64,000 nt of DNA, from NCBI RefSeq assembly GCF_017908595.1, contig NZ_JAGKTL010000003.1, positions 310,001 to 374,000 of the forward strand. The letters are read 5' to 3'. This DNA comes from Rhodothermus bifroesti (GTDB taxonomy: Bacteria > Bacteroidota > Rhodothermia > Rhodothermales > Rhodothermaceae). The position numbers and the translations under genes were made by a program. The stretch's first letter is position 1; each line of letters begins with the position of its first letter. Below the pieces are notes generated by a model that did no database searches, had not been told where the DNA came from, and worked only from the letters and a program-made list of their open reading frames with translations. Shown here in pieces: positions 20,487 to 27,798 of this stretch.

Positions 20487-21749
20487 CTAGGGGCTGAGCA
20501 CAGCTTGCGGTGCTGTGGCCAGCATAGAGGCGATAGCGCTTAGCCGGCCATCATGGACAGCCGGGGTAATCTGCAGCAGATGGCACATCAGGGCGTAGAG
20601 GTGAATGTTTTCAACGGGAGGAATACGCTTGCCTTGAGCAAAGGCGGGACCATGTGCAATCAGTAGGCCGTGCATTGAGGGATAGGTGGGGTCGTAGCCA
20701 TGCATACCCCCATTGAAGCGGGAAGGATCTTCAACAAAACGATTTCGCGTGGTAATGCTCCACCCTTCATCGGCAATACCGACAATTGGCGGAATACGCC
20801 GGTGTGTGCCAAAGTGCAGGTGTGCAGGCAAAGCCTCTTTGCGAAACACGTGCAGATGGGGATGAGCCCCCTGTAAGGCAGCCAAGACCGCATCCTCGCG
20901 GCCTGGACGTGGATAAAGCATGAGCACAGGCGACCAGGTGACAATGTGGAGCTCCTCTAGCGATACAAAATCGTCCAGAAAAATAACCCGCTCGGCTGAA
21001 GTGGCTGCCATACCATGGTCGGAAACGATAAGCAAGTTAACGCGGTCAAGTAGGTTACGCGCGCGTAGGCCTTCGATAAGCTGCTGCAAATAGCCGTCTA
21101 CCTTGCGAACGGCTTCAGCTACCTCTGGGGCGTCGGGTCCGTGCTCATGTCCAGCATGGTCGACGTCGCTAAAGTAGAGCGTGATCCAGTGCGGGCGAAG
21201 CGAATCAGGAAGATCTAGCCATGCAAGCACTTGCCGCACGCGTTCTTCACCAGGAATGCGGCTGTCGTAGGGCATCCAGTAGGTCGGACGCATACCGTGG
21301 ATTTCGGCTTCAGAACCTGGCCAAAAGTAGGTGGCGGTACGTAAGCCTTGGCGTTGAGCCGTGACCCAAAGCGGCTCGCCATCTGCCCACCAGCGGCCGT
21401 CGGCAATGGCTTCTCGATTGCTTAGGCTAAAGTGCCCCAGGGTCGAGTCAAACATCGTATTCCCAACAATGCCATGATGATCGGGGTATAGGCCAGTGAC
21501 CATCGTGTAATGGTTCGGAAACGTCAACGTAGGAAATGCAGGAATCAATGCTTCGGCCCGCACGCCTTGGCGAGCTAGCCTAGTGAGCACGGGTGGTGCA
21601 TAGCGTTCCAAATAGTCTGCCCGGAAGCCATCGATAGAAATCAGCAGTACCGGTGCAGGAGCGTTGACAGGTGCTATGCTGCGGCAACCGGCCAGCAGGA
21701 CTAAAAGCAGGAGTAGGCTAAGCCTTGGCCGTAACGTTTGGTGTGGCAT
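20487..21749 (-). CDS. Alkaline phosphatase superfamily nucleotide pyrophosphatase/phosphodiesterase (ENPP-like), lipoprotein
   Basis: The protein has 420 residues with a lipoprotein signal (LLLLVLLAGC). The catalytic core is LLISIDGFRADYLE, PTLTFPNHYTMVTGLYPDHHGIVGN with a Thr nucleophile, YFSDVDHAGHEHGP, LIVSDHGM and GMHGYDP. These are the two-metal ligands of the ectonucleotide pyrophosphatase branch. It should hydrolyse phosphodiester or pyrophosphate bonds of nucleotides or phospholipid head groups outside the cytoplasm, which would feed the nucleoside transporter in this window. The substrate is inference. Confidence 0.87.
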   Translation of the reverse strand: MPHQTLRPRLSLLLLLVLLAGCRSIAPVNAPAPVLLISIDGFRADYLERYAPPVLTRLARQGVRAEALIPAFPTLTFPNHYTMVTGLYPDHHGIVGNTMFDSTLGHFSLSNREAIADGRWWADGEPLWVTAQRQGLRTATYFWPGSEAEIHGMRPTYWMPYDSRIPGEERVRQVLAWLDLPDSLRPHWITLYFSDVDHAGHEHGPDAPEVAEAVRKVDGYLQQLIEGLRARNLLDRVNLLIVSDHGMAATSAERVIFLDDFVSLEELHIVTWSPVLMLYPRPGREDAVLAALQGAHPHLHVFRKEALPAHLHFGTHRRIPPIVGIADEGWSITTRNRFVEDPSRFNGGMHGYDPTYPSMHGLLIAHGPAFAQGKRIPPVENIHLYALMCHLLQITPAVHDGRLSAIASMLATAPQAVLSP

Positions 21750-21916
21750 AAGGCAGCTGATTTTATATCCAACAAACGGTTAGGTCCGGGCAAGTTAACC
21801 TGCTAGAGGGCCAGCAGAATCCCCACCGCAGGGATCCTGCGCAACAATGCATTAGGATTGTTTTGCCGGCGACAAGCACCCGTATTGAGTCCCACAAGCG
21901 TACCGCCGCAGATGAG

Positions 21917-22177
21917 CTAGGATTTCCGACCAAAGAAATAATACAGAATCAAACCGAGCACAGGAAAAAAGATGATAATTAAGGCCCAGAGGACCTTGCC
22001 GGAAAAGTCGCGGTCGCTTTTGGCTAAGTCTAACAAGGCTAAAATGTCCAATACAACGATCACGGTCCCGCAAAGGCCAAGCGACCAAAAGTTGCGCAAC
22101 CGGTCAAATAAATTGGGGCCGCAGCCGGTAAGTAGCAGGGCACTTAAAGGCAGAAGCCAGCGCGTCCGCAGTGTCAT
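21917..22177 (-). CDS. PLDc_N domain small membrane protein
   Basis: The protein has 86 residues. The N-terminus MTLRTRWLLPLSALLLTGC looks like a lipoprotein signal. Two hydrophobic helices follow (about 30-50 and 62-82) with the pattern of the PLD nuclease N-terminal domain: NFWSLG, VVLDILALLDLAKSD, LWALIIIFFPVLGLILYYFFGRK. Such proteins are common and of unknown function. Start 22177 was chosen for the signal. The region 21750-21916 downstream holds no recognised gene, only a short palindrome (GCAGGATCCCTGC on the minus strand). Confidence 0.7.
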   Translation of the reverse strand: MTLRTRWLLPLSALLLTGCGPNLFDRLRNFWSLGLCGTVIVVLDILALLDLAKSDRDFSGKVLWALIIIFFPVLGLILYYFFGRKS

Positions 22178-22263
22178 GGGTGGACCGTTTGGGTGAGTAT
22201 GCTTTTGTGCAATAAACAACAGTGCTGCCATAGAAGCAAGCCGAACAGGCACAAAAACCGTTA

Positions 22264-22292
22264 TTGACCTCCAGCAAAAACTCCCGTATTAT
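22264..22292 (+). promoter_or_regulatory. Putative sigma70-type promoter for the Xer-like gene
   Basis: TTGACC (22264-22269) and TATTAT (22287-22292) are separated by exactly 17 bases. This is the best sigma70 match seen in the window. It lies 30 bases before the ATG of the recombinase-like gene in the divergent gap. Confidence 0.55.
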
Positions 22293-22321
22293 TGAGCTAA
22301 AAGGGTAGATTTGTTTGGGCT

Positions 22322-23281
22322 ATGGCTAAAGCGACGGAACTTGAGCAGTCGGAGGAAGGGCTGCAGCTCACGCTGGGGGAGTTGCAGCGGCGCATTCGGG
22401 ACTTTCAGCACGAGTTTCTGAAAAACAAGAGTCCCGAGACGGTGGGGACGTATCGGCGATCGTTGCATGAATTTGAGCGCTGGTTTGCTTTGCAGCGAGA
22501 TCAGTTCCGGTTCACTTCAGCTGATGTGCAGCGCTACAAGCTGTATCTGATGCAGGCGAAGCAGTTGCATCAGGTTTCTGTTTCCACGTATCTCACGGCA
22601 CTGCGGCGATTTTGTCAGTATTTGGTAGATATTGGGCTATTGCGTGAAAATCCTGCGCGTACGGTTAAGGGGAATCGGCGGCCTTCGAGCCATTCTCGTT
22701 CGGTACTTACGCGCGTTGAGATTGAGCAGCTTCTGGAGGTGCTTGAGCACGATAGCTCGCCTATTGGCCTGCGCGATCGGGCAATTGTGCACCTGATGCT
22801 GTTTGCGGGTTTGAGCGAAGTAGAAATCGTACGGGCTGATGTGCGCGACCTGGATCAGACACTCCTGGGGTGTTTTTTGCGTGTGCAGGGCAAAGGCCAC
22901 ACGGCCAAAGACCAGCAGGTCCCACTAGATCCGCCAGTAGTCTCTGTTTTAGAGGCGTATTTAAACACGCGCGTGCCGCTTCGGCCTGAAATGCCGCTGT
23001 TTGTTTCGCACGGCCATCGGTCTGAAGGCAAGCGGCTCAACACCCGTTCGGTCCGCAGTCGCATTTCACAGCACCTAGAAGCCGCTGGCATTACCCGTCG
23101 TGGGGTTACGCCCCATAGCCTAACGCATACGGCAGCGCTGATCTGGCTCAATCAGGGGATGCCGATTGAGGAAGTGAAGCGCCGCATGCGGCACGGTACG
23201 CTGGAGACTACGATGATTTACTTCCGCAAGCAGGGATTGCTGAACCGTGATCCTGAAGAACTCAAGCGTCTGCTGGGTTAA
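22322..23281 (+). CDS. Tyrosine recombinase-like protein (Xer/integrase fold) lacking both catalytic arginines
   Basis: The protein has 319 residues. An N-terminal SAM-like core-binding domain (about 20-110) precedes an integrase catalytic domain. The expected six active-site residues align as follows: Arg-I is Ser165 (GLSEVEI instead of GLRxSEL), Lys191 is present (VQGKG), His265 is present (PHSLTH), Arg-II is Thr268, His291 is present (RHG), and the nucleophile Tyr300 is present (MIYFRK). Two residues needed to activate the phosphate are therefore missing, while fold and nucleophile remain. It is a single gene with no attachment sites or cargo nearby. It may be a DNA-binding or accessory protein rather than an active recombinase. 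Confidence 0.8.
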   Translation: MAKATELEQSEEGLQLTLGELQRRIRDFQHEFLKNKSPETVGTYRRSLHEFERWFALQRDQFRFTSADVQRYKLYLMQAKQLHQVSVSTYLTALRRFCQYLVDIGLLRENPARTVKGNRRPSSHSRSVLTRVEIEQLLEVLEHDSSPIGLRDRAIVHLMLFAGLSEVEIVRADVRDLDQTLLGCFLRVQGKGHTAKDQQVPLDPPVVSVLEAYLNTRVPLRPEMPLFVSHGHRSEGKRLNTRSVRSRISQHLEAAGITRRGVTPHSLTHTAALIWLNQGMPIEEVKRRMRHGTLETTMIYFRKQGLLNRDPEELKRLLG

Positions 23282-23913
23282 GGCGTGCTATCGGGCACGC
23301 GGCCTCCAATCACGAAGAAGTCGTCTACGCGCCAGGCGCAGTCCACGTCTACAAAGCCAGTGCGTTCAAGGGCTTTTAGGTGGCGATAAAGTGGTAAGAC
23401 GCCTACGTGATCGCCGATGATCAGGTGCCCGCCGGGCGTGAGGGAGTCCCGGATGCTTTGCAAAAGCAGCTCGTAACGGCTTTCGGCTTCCACGGGGTCG
23501 GTTTCGTGTCCTACCAGTGCGTGCAGGGCTAAGGAAGCCAGCACAACGTCGTAGGGTCCACCTGGAAGGGGTTCACCGTCAAAGCTTAAGAGGGTTTGAA
23601 TGGTGACAGCCTCGGGGCAATAATCGGCGACCTTGTCGTAGGCGATCGCCAGTAGCTCAGGGTCTTGGTCAATGAGCGTCAGGTGCACCAGCGGATAGGC
23701 TGAAACGACAGCGGCAGCTGCATTGCCGGTGCCACAGGCCAGGTCGCACACGCGCGTACCTTCGCGTAGGGGTGGCAGGGCCAGCACCATTTCGTCGATC
23801 ATTTCCATCGCCAACGGCATGCGGCGTTCCAGGTGCAGGTCATACCAGTAGCCGTCGCGCCAAAATCCGCTATGGCGTTGCAGGTTTTTGCGCCAACTGG
23901 GCAGATGGCTCAT
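23278..23913 (-). CDS. Class I SAM-dependent methyltransferase
   Basis: The protein has 211 residues. Motif I is VCDLACGTGNAAAAVV (about 56-71), motif II is LTLIDQDPELL, then YDVVLASLALHAL and a post-motif block LTPGGHLIIGDHVGVLPLYRHLKALERTGFVDVD. The pattern is that of small-molecule methyltransferases of the UbiE/Methyltransf_25 type. The substrate is unknown. It overlaps the stop of the convergent Xer-like gene through TTAA. It lies 55 bases downstream of recO on the same strand and may be co-transcribed with it. Confidence 0.78.
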   Translation of the reverse strand: MSHLPSWRKNLQRHSGFWRDGYWYDLHLERRMPLAMEMIDEMVLALPPLREGTRVCDLACGTGNAAAAVVSAYPLVHLTLIDQDPELLAIAYDKVADYCPEAVTIQTLLSFDGEPLPGGPYDVVLASLALHALVGHETDPVEAESRYELLLQSIRDSLTPGGHLIIGDHVGVLPLYRHLKALERTGFVDVDCAWRVDDFFVIGGRVPDSTP

Positions 23914-23968
23914 TGGTGTTGCATCGCGCTTGTAGAGGGAGCGCGCAATTCGACTGCATGGCGCAGCG

Positions 23969-24730
23969 TCAGGATCCCGGCTTGCGCATTTCCAACAGAC
24001 GCTCGATGACGCGTGGACTGCGTGAGGGAAATCCTTCGGGCACGTGATGCTGGAGGTAGGTCTCGATCAAACCAAGCAGTTCGTGGCGCAGTGCAGGCGT
24101 CAGTTGCAAACGCATGGCTGTTGCCGCATCCGTATGCGTTAGAAAAGCAAACGCCCTTAGGGCAGCCCGCGAAGCCGGCTTTTCAATGGCTAAGCCCTTA
24201 GCGATGCGGATGCGTCCATCTTGCAGGTCGAGTACACCGCCCGACGCGCCAAGCTGCTCCAGTTCAGCTCGTGTGACCTGGGGTGCAAAGCCTAAGGCGC
24301 CTGCCAACCGTAGCAGAAACCAAGGCAGTAAATTCCAAGCGCGCTTAGCTGCCGCATCAAGCTGGGCCAGCGTGTCCCAAAACGTGTTGAAAAAATCGGG
24401 CATGGGTTCTTCAGGAGGAAGCAGTGCTTGGGCAAGTTCAACCATACGCAGGCTCAGTGCCAGCTTTTCCAAATCTTGCGTAATATGCGGTAAGAATTGT
24501 TGAAAGCTGCTTTCGGTAAGCGTTTGCAGTTCGCGTGAGGGTTTGTAATAGAAGACGACCTGAAGGCAGGCTGGAGGTTGCAGCGTACCGCCAAAGCGGC
24601 TACCAGGCAGGCGCGCACCTTTTGCAAGGACCGACAGGCGGCCTTTGGCCCGCGTAAACAGGGAGGCAATCAAGCTCGTCTCGCCATAAGGCAGCGTACG
24701 CAGCACAATCGCTTCTGTGCGGATAATCAT
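23969..24730 (-). CDS. recO: DNA repair protein RecO
   Basis: The protein has 253 residues starting at ATG 24730; a TTG one codon earlier is less likely. The N-terminal OB-fold has the family pattern RTEAIVLRTLPYGETSLIASLFTRAKGRLSVLAKGAR. The C-terminal helical domain (LPWFLLRLAGALGFAPQVTRAELEQ) matches RecO. The Cys4 zinc site seen in many RecO proteins is absent. RecO loads RecA onto SSB-coated DNA with RecR. It is divergent from the ComEA-like gene, with 94 bases between the starts. Confidence 0.9.
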   Translation of the reverse strand: MIIRTEAIVLRTLPYGETSLIASLFTRAKGRLSVLAKGARLPGSRFGGTLQPPACLQVVFYYKPSRELQTLTESSFQQFLPHITQDLEKLALSLRMVELAQALLPPEEPMPDFFNTFWDTLAQLDAAAKRAWNLLPWFLLRLAGALGFAPQVTRAELEQLGASGGVLDLQDGRIRIAKGLAIEKPASRAALRAFAFLTHTDAATAMRLQLTPALRHELLGLIETYLQHHVPEGFPSRSPRVIERLLEMRKPGS

Positions 24731-26350: not shown

Positions 26351-26390
26351 AAAATAAGCCGGAGCGCCTGAAAGCGCTCCGGCTTATTTT
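26351..26390. terminator. Bidirectional intrinsic terminator between the esterase and Spy-like genes
   Basis: A perfect 17-base-pair stem (26351-26367 with 26374-26390) has a 6-base loop. Its outer part is A-rich on one side and T-rich on the other, so it works in both directions. The right arm overlaps the stop codon of the Spy-like gene. Confidence 0.88.
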
Positions 26391-27234
26391 ACTGGGCACG
26401 AATCCCCTGCCAGGTGCGCCAAAGGCGGTGGTAGAGCTGCACAATTTCTTGCTGTTCAGGCGTTAGGATAAGCGACCAGCCTGCCCAGCGAAACGGTCCG
26501 GGTTGCAGGGCTTGTGCAGCAAGCTGTTGCTGCTGCTCGGGCGTCAGGCGCAGCACTTCGAGCATAGCCTGACGCTCGGCTGCAAGTTGTTGCCGCTGCT
26601 CTGGCGTCAGCAGCTGTTGCAGACGCGTTTGGTATTGGGTGCGTAGGGTTTGCTGTTGTTGCCAAAAGGCTTGGGCCGAAAGTGTGCCTGCGCGCCACTG
26701 CTGCTCAAGCTGTCGCATGGCATCACGGTGCCGCCGTGCCAGCACGGCCAGCGAATCACGCTGGGCCTCACTAAGGTTCAGCCAGTCTATCATACCGATG
26801 GGCATACCGGCGCAAGGCATAGCTCCATGCCATTGACCCCGGCAAGGACCCATACCGATGGGCATACCGGCGCAAGGCATAGCTCCATGCCATTGACCCC
26901 AGCCGTGGCCTTTACCCCAAAAACGTCCCCTAGGGCGGCCGGGGTGGTTCCGGTTTCGGTATAGGGGAGCTTGCCAGAATTCAGCCTTTTGCGCATCACT
27001 GAGCTGGCGCGCCAGGTCGGCAGCCACATACCAAAAGAAGCCGCCCCGATCGAATCGGCCTGCATGGCGTTCCATAGCTTCCTGCAACGCACGGGCCGTG
27101 GCCTCAGAAAGCTGAAGCCGATCGGCCATCTGGCTTGCCCGCGTGCGCACATCGACCTGGGCTTGGGCCGTTGTGCTCAGGCTTACAGCGAGCACCAGGC
27201 CTATTAGAAACCGGTTTTTCTTTATTTTTCGCAT
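26389..27234 (-). CDS. Periplasmic Spy/CpxP-like LTxxQ-repeat protein with His/Met/Cys-rich insert
   Basis: The protein has 281 residues with a signal peptide (RFLIGLVLAVSLSTTAQA). Five LTxxQ-type motifs occur: LSDAQKAEF, LSEAQRDSL, LTPEQRQQL, LTPEQQQQL and LTPEQQEIV, in Gln/Arg-rich helices. This is the pattern of Spy, CpxP and related periplasmic chaperones or metal sensors. Between the first and second motifs is an unusual insert in which GQWHGAMPCAGMPIGM occurs twice (residues 113-128 and 133-148), preceded by a Gly/His/Trp-rich run. His, Met and Cys spacing there suggests metal binding, perhaps copper; that is inference. A start upstream of 27234 is possible but would lose the signal peptide. 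Confidence 0.75.
   Translation of the reverse strand: MRKIKKNRFLIGLVLAVSLSTTAQAQVDVRTRASQMADRLQLSEATARALQEAMERHAGRFDRGGFFWYVAADLARQLSDAQKAEFWQAPLYRNRNHPGRPRGRFWGKGHGWGQWHGAMPCAGMPIGMGPCRGQWHGAMPCAGMPIGMIDWLNLSEAQRDSLAVLARRHRDAMRQLEQQWRAGTLSAQAFWQQQQTLRTQYQTRLQQLLTPEQRQQLAAERQAMLEVLRLTPEQQQQLAAQALQPGPFRWAGWSLILTPEQQEIVQLYHRLWRTWQGIRAQ
26791..26900 (-). repeat. Tandem in-frame 60-base duplication
   Basis: Fifty bases (26791-26840) are repeated exactly at 26851-26900, giving a 60-base period. The copies encode the same 16-residue His/Met/Cys-rich block in the Spy-like protein. Perfect identity suggests a recent duplication or maintained repeat. Confidence 0.95.
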
Positions 27235-27345
27235 AACGCTGCCCTTAGGATGGTACCCTGAAGTAATCCACAAGGTGGTACGAGCTTCAGAGGGCCGGGT
27301 TGTCACGATTTTGTGGCGAGTTTTCAGCAAAATGCTCCTACGTCT

Positions 27346-27798
27346 ATGGTCGAAACGATCGTTCGTGTTGTCGATGTGTATGCTTACCGTCACAAAGACG
27401 GTATTTTAAAGTTTTTGCTACTCCGACGGGCACCGGGGGTGAGCTATGCCGGCCAGTGGCGCATGATTGGCGGCAAGATTCGGCCAGGTGAGGTCGCCTG
27501 GCAGACGGCATTGCGGGAAGTGCAAGAAGAAACGGGACAGCGACCGCTTCGGCTTTGGGTGGTGCCTTCGCTGAACGCGTTTTACGAGTGGCAGCATGAC
27601 CGGATCAACCTAATTCCGGTTTTTGCCGCTGAGCTGCAAGCGGATCCAGTGCTCGACGATGAGCACGATGCTTTTGCCTGGCTTGGTCTTGAAGAGGCAA
27701 GCGAACGCTTGCTTTGGCCTGAGCAGCGTCGATTGTTGCGTTTGGTGGCCCAAATGTTGCACAACGGTCTGCCACCAGAAATTTTTGTCTCTTTCTGA
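27346..27798 (+). CDS. NUDIX hydrolase
   Basis: This 150-residue protein has a complete Nudix box at residues 43-65: GKIRPGEVAWQTALREVQEETG, fitting GX5EX7REUXEEXGU. The preceding strand FLLLRRAPGVSYAGQWRMIGG is typical. The family cleaves nucleoside diphosphates linked to other groups, and the Nudix box is the Mg-binding catalytic loop. The substrate is not readable; similar proteins act on dihydroneopterin triphosphate or modified dNTPs. ATG 27346 is preferred over an upstream GTG. The 3' end overlaps the proximal box of a promoter-like site for the next gene. Confidence 0.86.
   Translation: MVETIVRVVDVYAYRHKDGILKFLLLRRAPGVSYAGQWRMIGGKIRPGEVAWQTALREVQEETGQRPLRLWVVPSLNAFYEWQHDRINLIPVFAAELQADPVLDDEHDAFAWLGLEEASERLLWPEQRRLLRLVAQMLHNGLPPEIFVSF

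Follow-up and report, generated by a model that had tools for sequence, protein, structure and literature searches.

A gene at positions 22322–23281 of the 64,000-nucleotide stretch of Rhodothermus bifroesti DNA analysed here (the window) encodes a Xer-type tyrosine-recombinase-fold protein without either catalytic arginine, and this protein, referred to below as the dead Xer, is retained where XerC, XerD, and the canonical dif site have been lost. The sequence comparisons, a predicted structure, and an analogy with phage repressors make it reasonably probable that the dead Xer is a housekeeping, non-catalytic DNA-binding protein with a tyrosine recombinase fold, belonging to an ancient clade that lost Arg-I early on.

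Gene structure and catalytic positions

The gene is an intact ORF on the plus strand, with an ATG start, 319 codons for amino acids, and zero stops. The protein matched the Pfam family Phage_integrase (PF00589; E = 3.9e-22, 79.3 bits against a cut-off of 27.1) and, at its N-terminus, a SAM-like integrase domain; it is a two-domain member of the tyrosine recombinase fold superfamily. The features of the locus are as follows.

22264..22292, plus strand: promoter-like element TTGACC-17-TATTAT (scan match; same –35/–10 pair in six congeneric genomes)
22322..23281, plus strand: gene for the Xer-type tyrosine-recombinase-fold protein without Arg-I and Arg-II, 319 amino acids (ORF, Pfam, alignments, model)
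22373..22675, plus strand: N-terminal core-binding (SAM-like) domain, approximately residues 18–118 (Pfam SAM_1 at residues 34–103; helices in the model)
22703..23230, plus strand: catalytic-type domain (PF00589), residues 128–303 (Pfam)
22814..22816, plus strand: codon AGC, Ser165 at the Arg-I position (alignments)
22892..22894, plus strand: codon AAA, Lys191, kept (alignments)
23114..23116, plus strand: His265, kept (alignments)
23123..23125, plus strand: codon ACG, Thr268 at the Arg-II position (alignments)
23192..23194, plus strand: His291, kept (alignments)
23219..23221, plus strand: codon TAC, Tyr300 at the nucleophile position, kept here and Ser in several orthologues (alignments)

The strong promoter proposed in the initial annotation was weak by the scan alone, in which the element was not significant (one match versus 0.8 expected in shuffled sequences), although the pair recurs upstream of the gene in six congeneric genomes, all six of which were read. 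Elsewhere in the window, the predicted translation of 26389–27393 on the minus strand is an exported-looking protein with the internal repeat GQWHGAMPCAGMPIGM.

The protein was aligned with XerD (1A0P as the reference in the HMMER alignment), XerA, and archaeal Xer structures, and with 62 intact tyrosine recombinases from the same phylum, plasmids, or viral contigs. Its catalytic positions read S165-K191-H265-T268-H291-Y300, in which S165 occupies the Arg-I column, K191 the Lys column, H265 the His-I column, T268 the Arg-II column, H291 the His/Trp column, and Y300 that of the nucleophile, so that every residue and coordinate given in the initial annotation was correct. All 62 intact comparators carry R-K-H-R-H-Y, whereas the window protein and its close orthologues carry S-K-H-T-H-Y; the acidic residue three positions after Arg-I (E168) is kept. 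The alignment contained no replacement arginine in adjacent active-site columns, and R171 and R290, considered as arginines that might compensate from beside Arg-I or Arg-II, were rejected because they are also present in relatives that have both arginines. The window protein thus lacks the catalytic set of an active tyrosine recombinase, R-K-H-R-H/W-Y. Arg-I and Arg-II steady the transition state at the scissile phosphate; Cre and Flp mutants without either arginine can be rescued by neutralising that phosphate, and a recombinase without either one is defective on native DNA (PMC4499138). Judging from these mutants, a protein without both arginines should not recombine native DNA.

The AlphaFold2 model of the window protein (pLDDT 87.8) best matched the DNA-bound structures of XerH, lambda Int, and Cre (Z 18–21 over 257–288 residues), with XerH on top (5jjv; Z 20.7, rmsd 3.8 over 288 residues). 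The repressors MrpR/YopR and SroF also matched the model, with Z 12.6–15.7 and 13–15% identity. The same kind of fold was predicted, with a pLDDT of 90.5, for a member of the clade in which the active site is mostly erased. Separately, chain 14 of PDB 9i5v, which has 401 amino acids and is labelled as the ribosome-associated inhibitor RaiA, aligns with Xer recombinases across its residues 20–280, which reflects either a fusion or an error of naming or translation.

Conservation of the dead Xer and its clade

Orthologues were found in 104 of 114 Rhodothermales genomes, and nine of the ten genomes without one are less than 95% complete; the near relatives that carry names are Rhodothermus and other Rhodothermales. 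Among 34 aligned members from the order, Thr268, Lys191, His265, and His291 were invariant, the Arg-I position was Ser in 31, Gly in two, and Ala in one, and Tyr300 was Tyr in 30 and Ser in four. Across the Rhodothermales orthologues as a whole, the Arg-I position is Ser and rarely Thr, Gly, or Ala; outside one further-degenerated family, every member examined has Thr268. In family f15 of the Rhodothermales, most of the catalytic set is gone, including the Tyr in most members read. The close orthologues share both substitutions, so that a lone substitution or sequencing error, which the initial annotation would have read from close orthologues with intact arginines, is excluded, as is chance. 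All four Thr codons are used at Thr268 and both AGY and TCN codons at Ser165, and therefore the residues, not merely the DNA, are conserved. The dN/dS ratios against the congeners (0.06–0.08) place the gene under strong purifying selection and, with the open frames, bear out the view that it is not a decaying pseudogene. Protein identity within the genus is 87–89%, compared with 69–74% for the neighbouring RecO, 84–85% for the UvrD-type helicase, and 87–90% for the adjoining methyltransferase.

Profile searches of whole genomes across the host phylum recovered the same clade in other classes. There, Arg-I is again mostly Ser, but most members retain Arg-II and many have instead replaced His-I or His-III with Phe, Ile, or Leu. 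In the phylogenetic tree, the clade formed one side of a branch with an SH-aLRT support of 100 (XerC 99, XerD 99), and its members were again split from the intact Xers in a second tree, in which long branches were flagged, leaving its finer placements uncertain. Ser predominates at Arg-I in both deep halves of the clade, which indicates that the loss of Arg-I predates the Rhodothermales. In one distant group at the genus level, the Arg-I position is occupied by Arg, with Gln at the Arg-II position in three of the four members. The sole clade member with all six catalytic residues (R-K-H-R-H-Y) is L113 (G460:C39:585-1454), which may have regained them or may represent the last active form still present; on the tree topology, a regain would be a shorter path than about five separate losses, which is not a proof. 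Y44, R46, Y72, L76, Y90, R151, D152, D176, R242, and S266 were invariant across 64 members, and five of them, R46, Y72, Y90, R242, and S266, are seldom seen among intact recombinases. These family-specific residues are candidates for a retained DNA contact surface. Judging from the alignments and models, other lineages lost other catalytic residues, while the predicted fold and the family-specific residues persist.

The genomic setting, with neighbour names read from the sequences, is that of chromosomal housekeeping rather than of a mobile element. In 40 Rhodothermales loci, the gene is preceded on its own strand by a 2-oxoacid dehydrogenase E2 gene, and convergent PorQ-like and secA genes often lie downstream; elsewhere in the phylum, leuS often comes directly after it. 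The E2 subunit gene was rejected as a universal operon partner, since it is absent from this position in Rhodothermus and in other classes. No defence or mobile genes occurred in the gene neighbourhood, and an origin as a mobile-element gene was rejected because the closest phage, plasmid, and viral matches are just 24–36% identical. By these comparisons and the tree, the gene is inherited vertically as an ordinary chromosomal gene.

Xer machinery and dif-like sites in Rhodothermales

As an order, the Rhodothermales appear to be without XerC, XerD, and canonical dif, with the dead Xer retained. Both XerC and XerD were absent from all 15 Rhodothermales first tested, and in a wider test XerD was found in none of 114; every genome tested outside the order had an XerD over the cut-off and a second, XerC-like protein. 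Of the 124 other genomes of the class that were scanned, 76 had a dif-type 28-mer, compared with only one of 114 Rhodothermales, and no dif-type match was found in the host genome. The FtsK gamma domain was kept in 14 of 14 Rhodothermales tested. The dead Xer itself shares the two-domain architecture of XerC and XerD and is approximately 26% identical to XerD over the aligned residues, but it falls far below the cut-offs of the equivalog models (NCBIfam TIGR02224 for XerC and TIGR02225 for XerD; 140.5 versus 335.15 and 119.8 versus 329.6 bits). The protein has neither Arg-I nor Arg-II, and its clade is separate from theirs and occurs together with both proteins in other classes. A role in which it replaces XerC or XerD as a partner is disfavoured, since genomes of other classes have the clade in addition to both proteins and those of the order have kept it in their absence.

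In place of the XerC/XerD pair that the initial annotation suggested seeking elsewhere in the genome, the host has one intact Xer, L060 (C2:579028), which is its sole other PF00589 gene and has the full catalytic set. Just upstream of this gene lies a perfect 11-6-11 palindrome, ATGTTTGATAA-GTATTA-TTATCAAACAT (L060:1850-1877; G000:C2, ~578982-579009). Its core is TTTGATAA-N6-TTATCAAA; six further genomes, drawn from several families (L064, L065, L059, L250, L254, and L260), have variants of this core at a distance of approximately 700 bases or less from an L060-type gene. This arrangement resembles the linked XerS/difSL and XerH modules (PMC2731167), and L060 with its palindrome is probably a new single-Xer/dif-like module that replaces XerCD/dif in part of the Rhodothermales. 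Given the symmetry of the dif-like palindrome, an intact L060-type Xer should need no second subunit. The L060-type Xers are patchy, being present in 36 of 60 genomes, and L060 is 63% identical to L064, from another family, versus 45% to L061 and L063 from its own genus, a pattern suggestive of turnover of the active Xer or of its replacement by horizontal transfer.

Of the tyrosine-recombinase-fold proteins seen in the Rhodothermales, the dead Xer is the most constant, and no constant partner for it was found in the order. A binding palindrome of its own beside the gene was also sought; no 11-6-11 palindrome with at least nine of 11 pairs was present in 21500–24000 of the window.

Proposed function of the dead Xer

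Two of the closest known parallels are phage proteins. MrpR (YopR), the master repressor of the SPbeta prophage of Bacillus (PDB 8a0a, 8bpz), combines, like the dead Xer, a full tyrosine-recombinase fold with an active site that does not work, and the same is true of SroF from phage phi3T (PDB 9rd5, 9rgl). In MrpR, Val/Ser stands at Arg-I and most catalytic residues have been lost, while Lys and Tyr are kept; it is a proven DNA-binding repressor that binds a repeated element, represses the prophage, and has no recombination activity, and its Tyr304 matters for DNA binding (PMC10516654). The dead Xer differs from both in keeping both His residues and in having Thr at Arg-II, and it is a bacterial core gene whereas they are phage proteins. 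XerH of Helicobacter and XerS of Streptococcus are single-Xer systems, whereas the dead Xer has neither a linked dif-like palindrome nor the catalytic arginines and scored 54.5 of 267 bits against the XerS model. Streptococci also have XerDL, a conserved XerD-like paralogue that is annotated as not acting at difSL, but this belongs to another phylum. A limited literature search found nothing on dif/Xer in Rhodothermus or Salinibacter, on XerDL, or on the dead-Xer clade, and no family that could be found explains the dead Xer.

The loss of both arginines and the precedent of MrpR favour a non-catalytic DNA-binding role. By analogy, the dead Xer most likely works like the phage repressor: as a dimer or tetramer unable to cut or exchange strands, it would hold a specific, probably palindromic, chromosomal site in its C-shaped clamp and would either regulate transcription or have an architectural role. 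The retained Lys, His, and Tyr would then contribute to DNA contact and the stability of the fold, as Tyr304 does in MrpR. The suggestion in the initial annotation of a regulator or architectural protein built from a recombinase is thus the most likely prediction on the basis of fold, conservation, and this analogy. Some points count against this reading: no palindrome lies near the gene, His and Tyr seem to be kept more often than a pure DNA binder would need, and the distant member L113 has the full catalytic set.

The kept core of the catalytic domain, with its His and Tyr, would also suit a tetramer with an active partner, and the dead Xer might then serve an active recombinase as its non-catalytic subunit or regulator, one that occupies one half-site and positions or switches the cutting partner, as in the mutual control of XerC and XerD. 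Outside the Rhodothermales, XerC and XerD are always present, and the host genome has an intact Xer and the FtsK gamma domain is kept; however, the dead Xer remains in an order from which XerC, XerD, and canonical dif are missing, the L060-type Xers are patchy, and the L060-linked site in the host, a perfect palindrome, could be filled by a single protein, and we regard such a subunit as unlikely. That the protein instead antagonises foreign DNA, as a dead recombinase occupying the sites that plasmids, phages, or integrating elements use for attachment or resolution, is very unlikely: its nearest relatives outside the clade do include intact plasmid-borne recombinases with 30–36% identity and the same motif around Arg-I, but its neighbourhood is of the housekeeping type, and its slow, vertical evolution is unlike that of a defence gene.

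A different chemistry, also raised in the initial annotation, would require Ser165 and Thr268 to act for the arginines, or a partner to supply them in trans. Across most Rhodothermales, Lys, Tyr, and the two His residues are invariant or nearly so, and Ser at Arg-I is maintained by different codons, all of which would fit such a route, but it is disfavoured and very unlikely, considering that Tyr300 is Ser in several Rhodothermales lineages, that hardly any of the catalytic set survives in one family with the fold still predicted, that other classes lost His-I or His-III instead of Arg-II, and that the Cre and Flp arginine mutants require a neutralised phosphate (PMC4499138).

Whether non-catalytic DNA binding extends to the whole clade is evenly balanced in our estimate from the sequences: the ancient, phylum-wide dead-Xer clade may be an unrecognised chromosomal DNA-binding protein, regulatory or architectural, that one entire order has retained after losing XerC, XerD, and dif. 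The known recombinase-fold regulators that we found in the literature and the PDB are phage-derived; if the proposal is true, a conserved bacterial core gene would bring recombinase-fold regulation into ordinary chromosome biology. The Rhodothermales offer a clean natural experiment in this respect, with XerC, XerD, and dif gone and the FtsK gamma domain and the dead Xer remaining, and the dead Xer is a caution against labelling every PF00589 match an integrase or recombinase.
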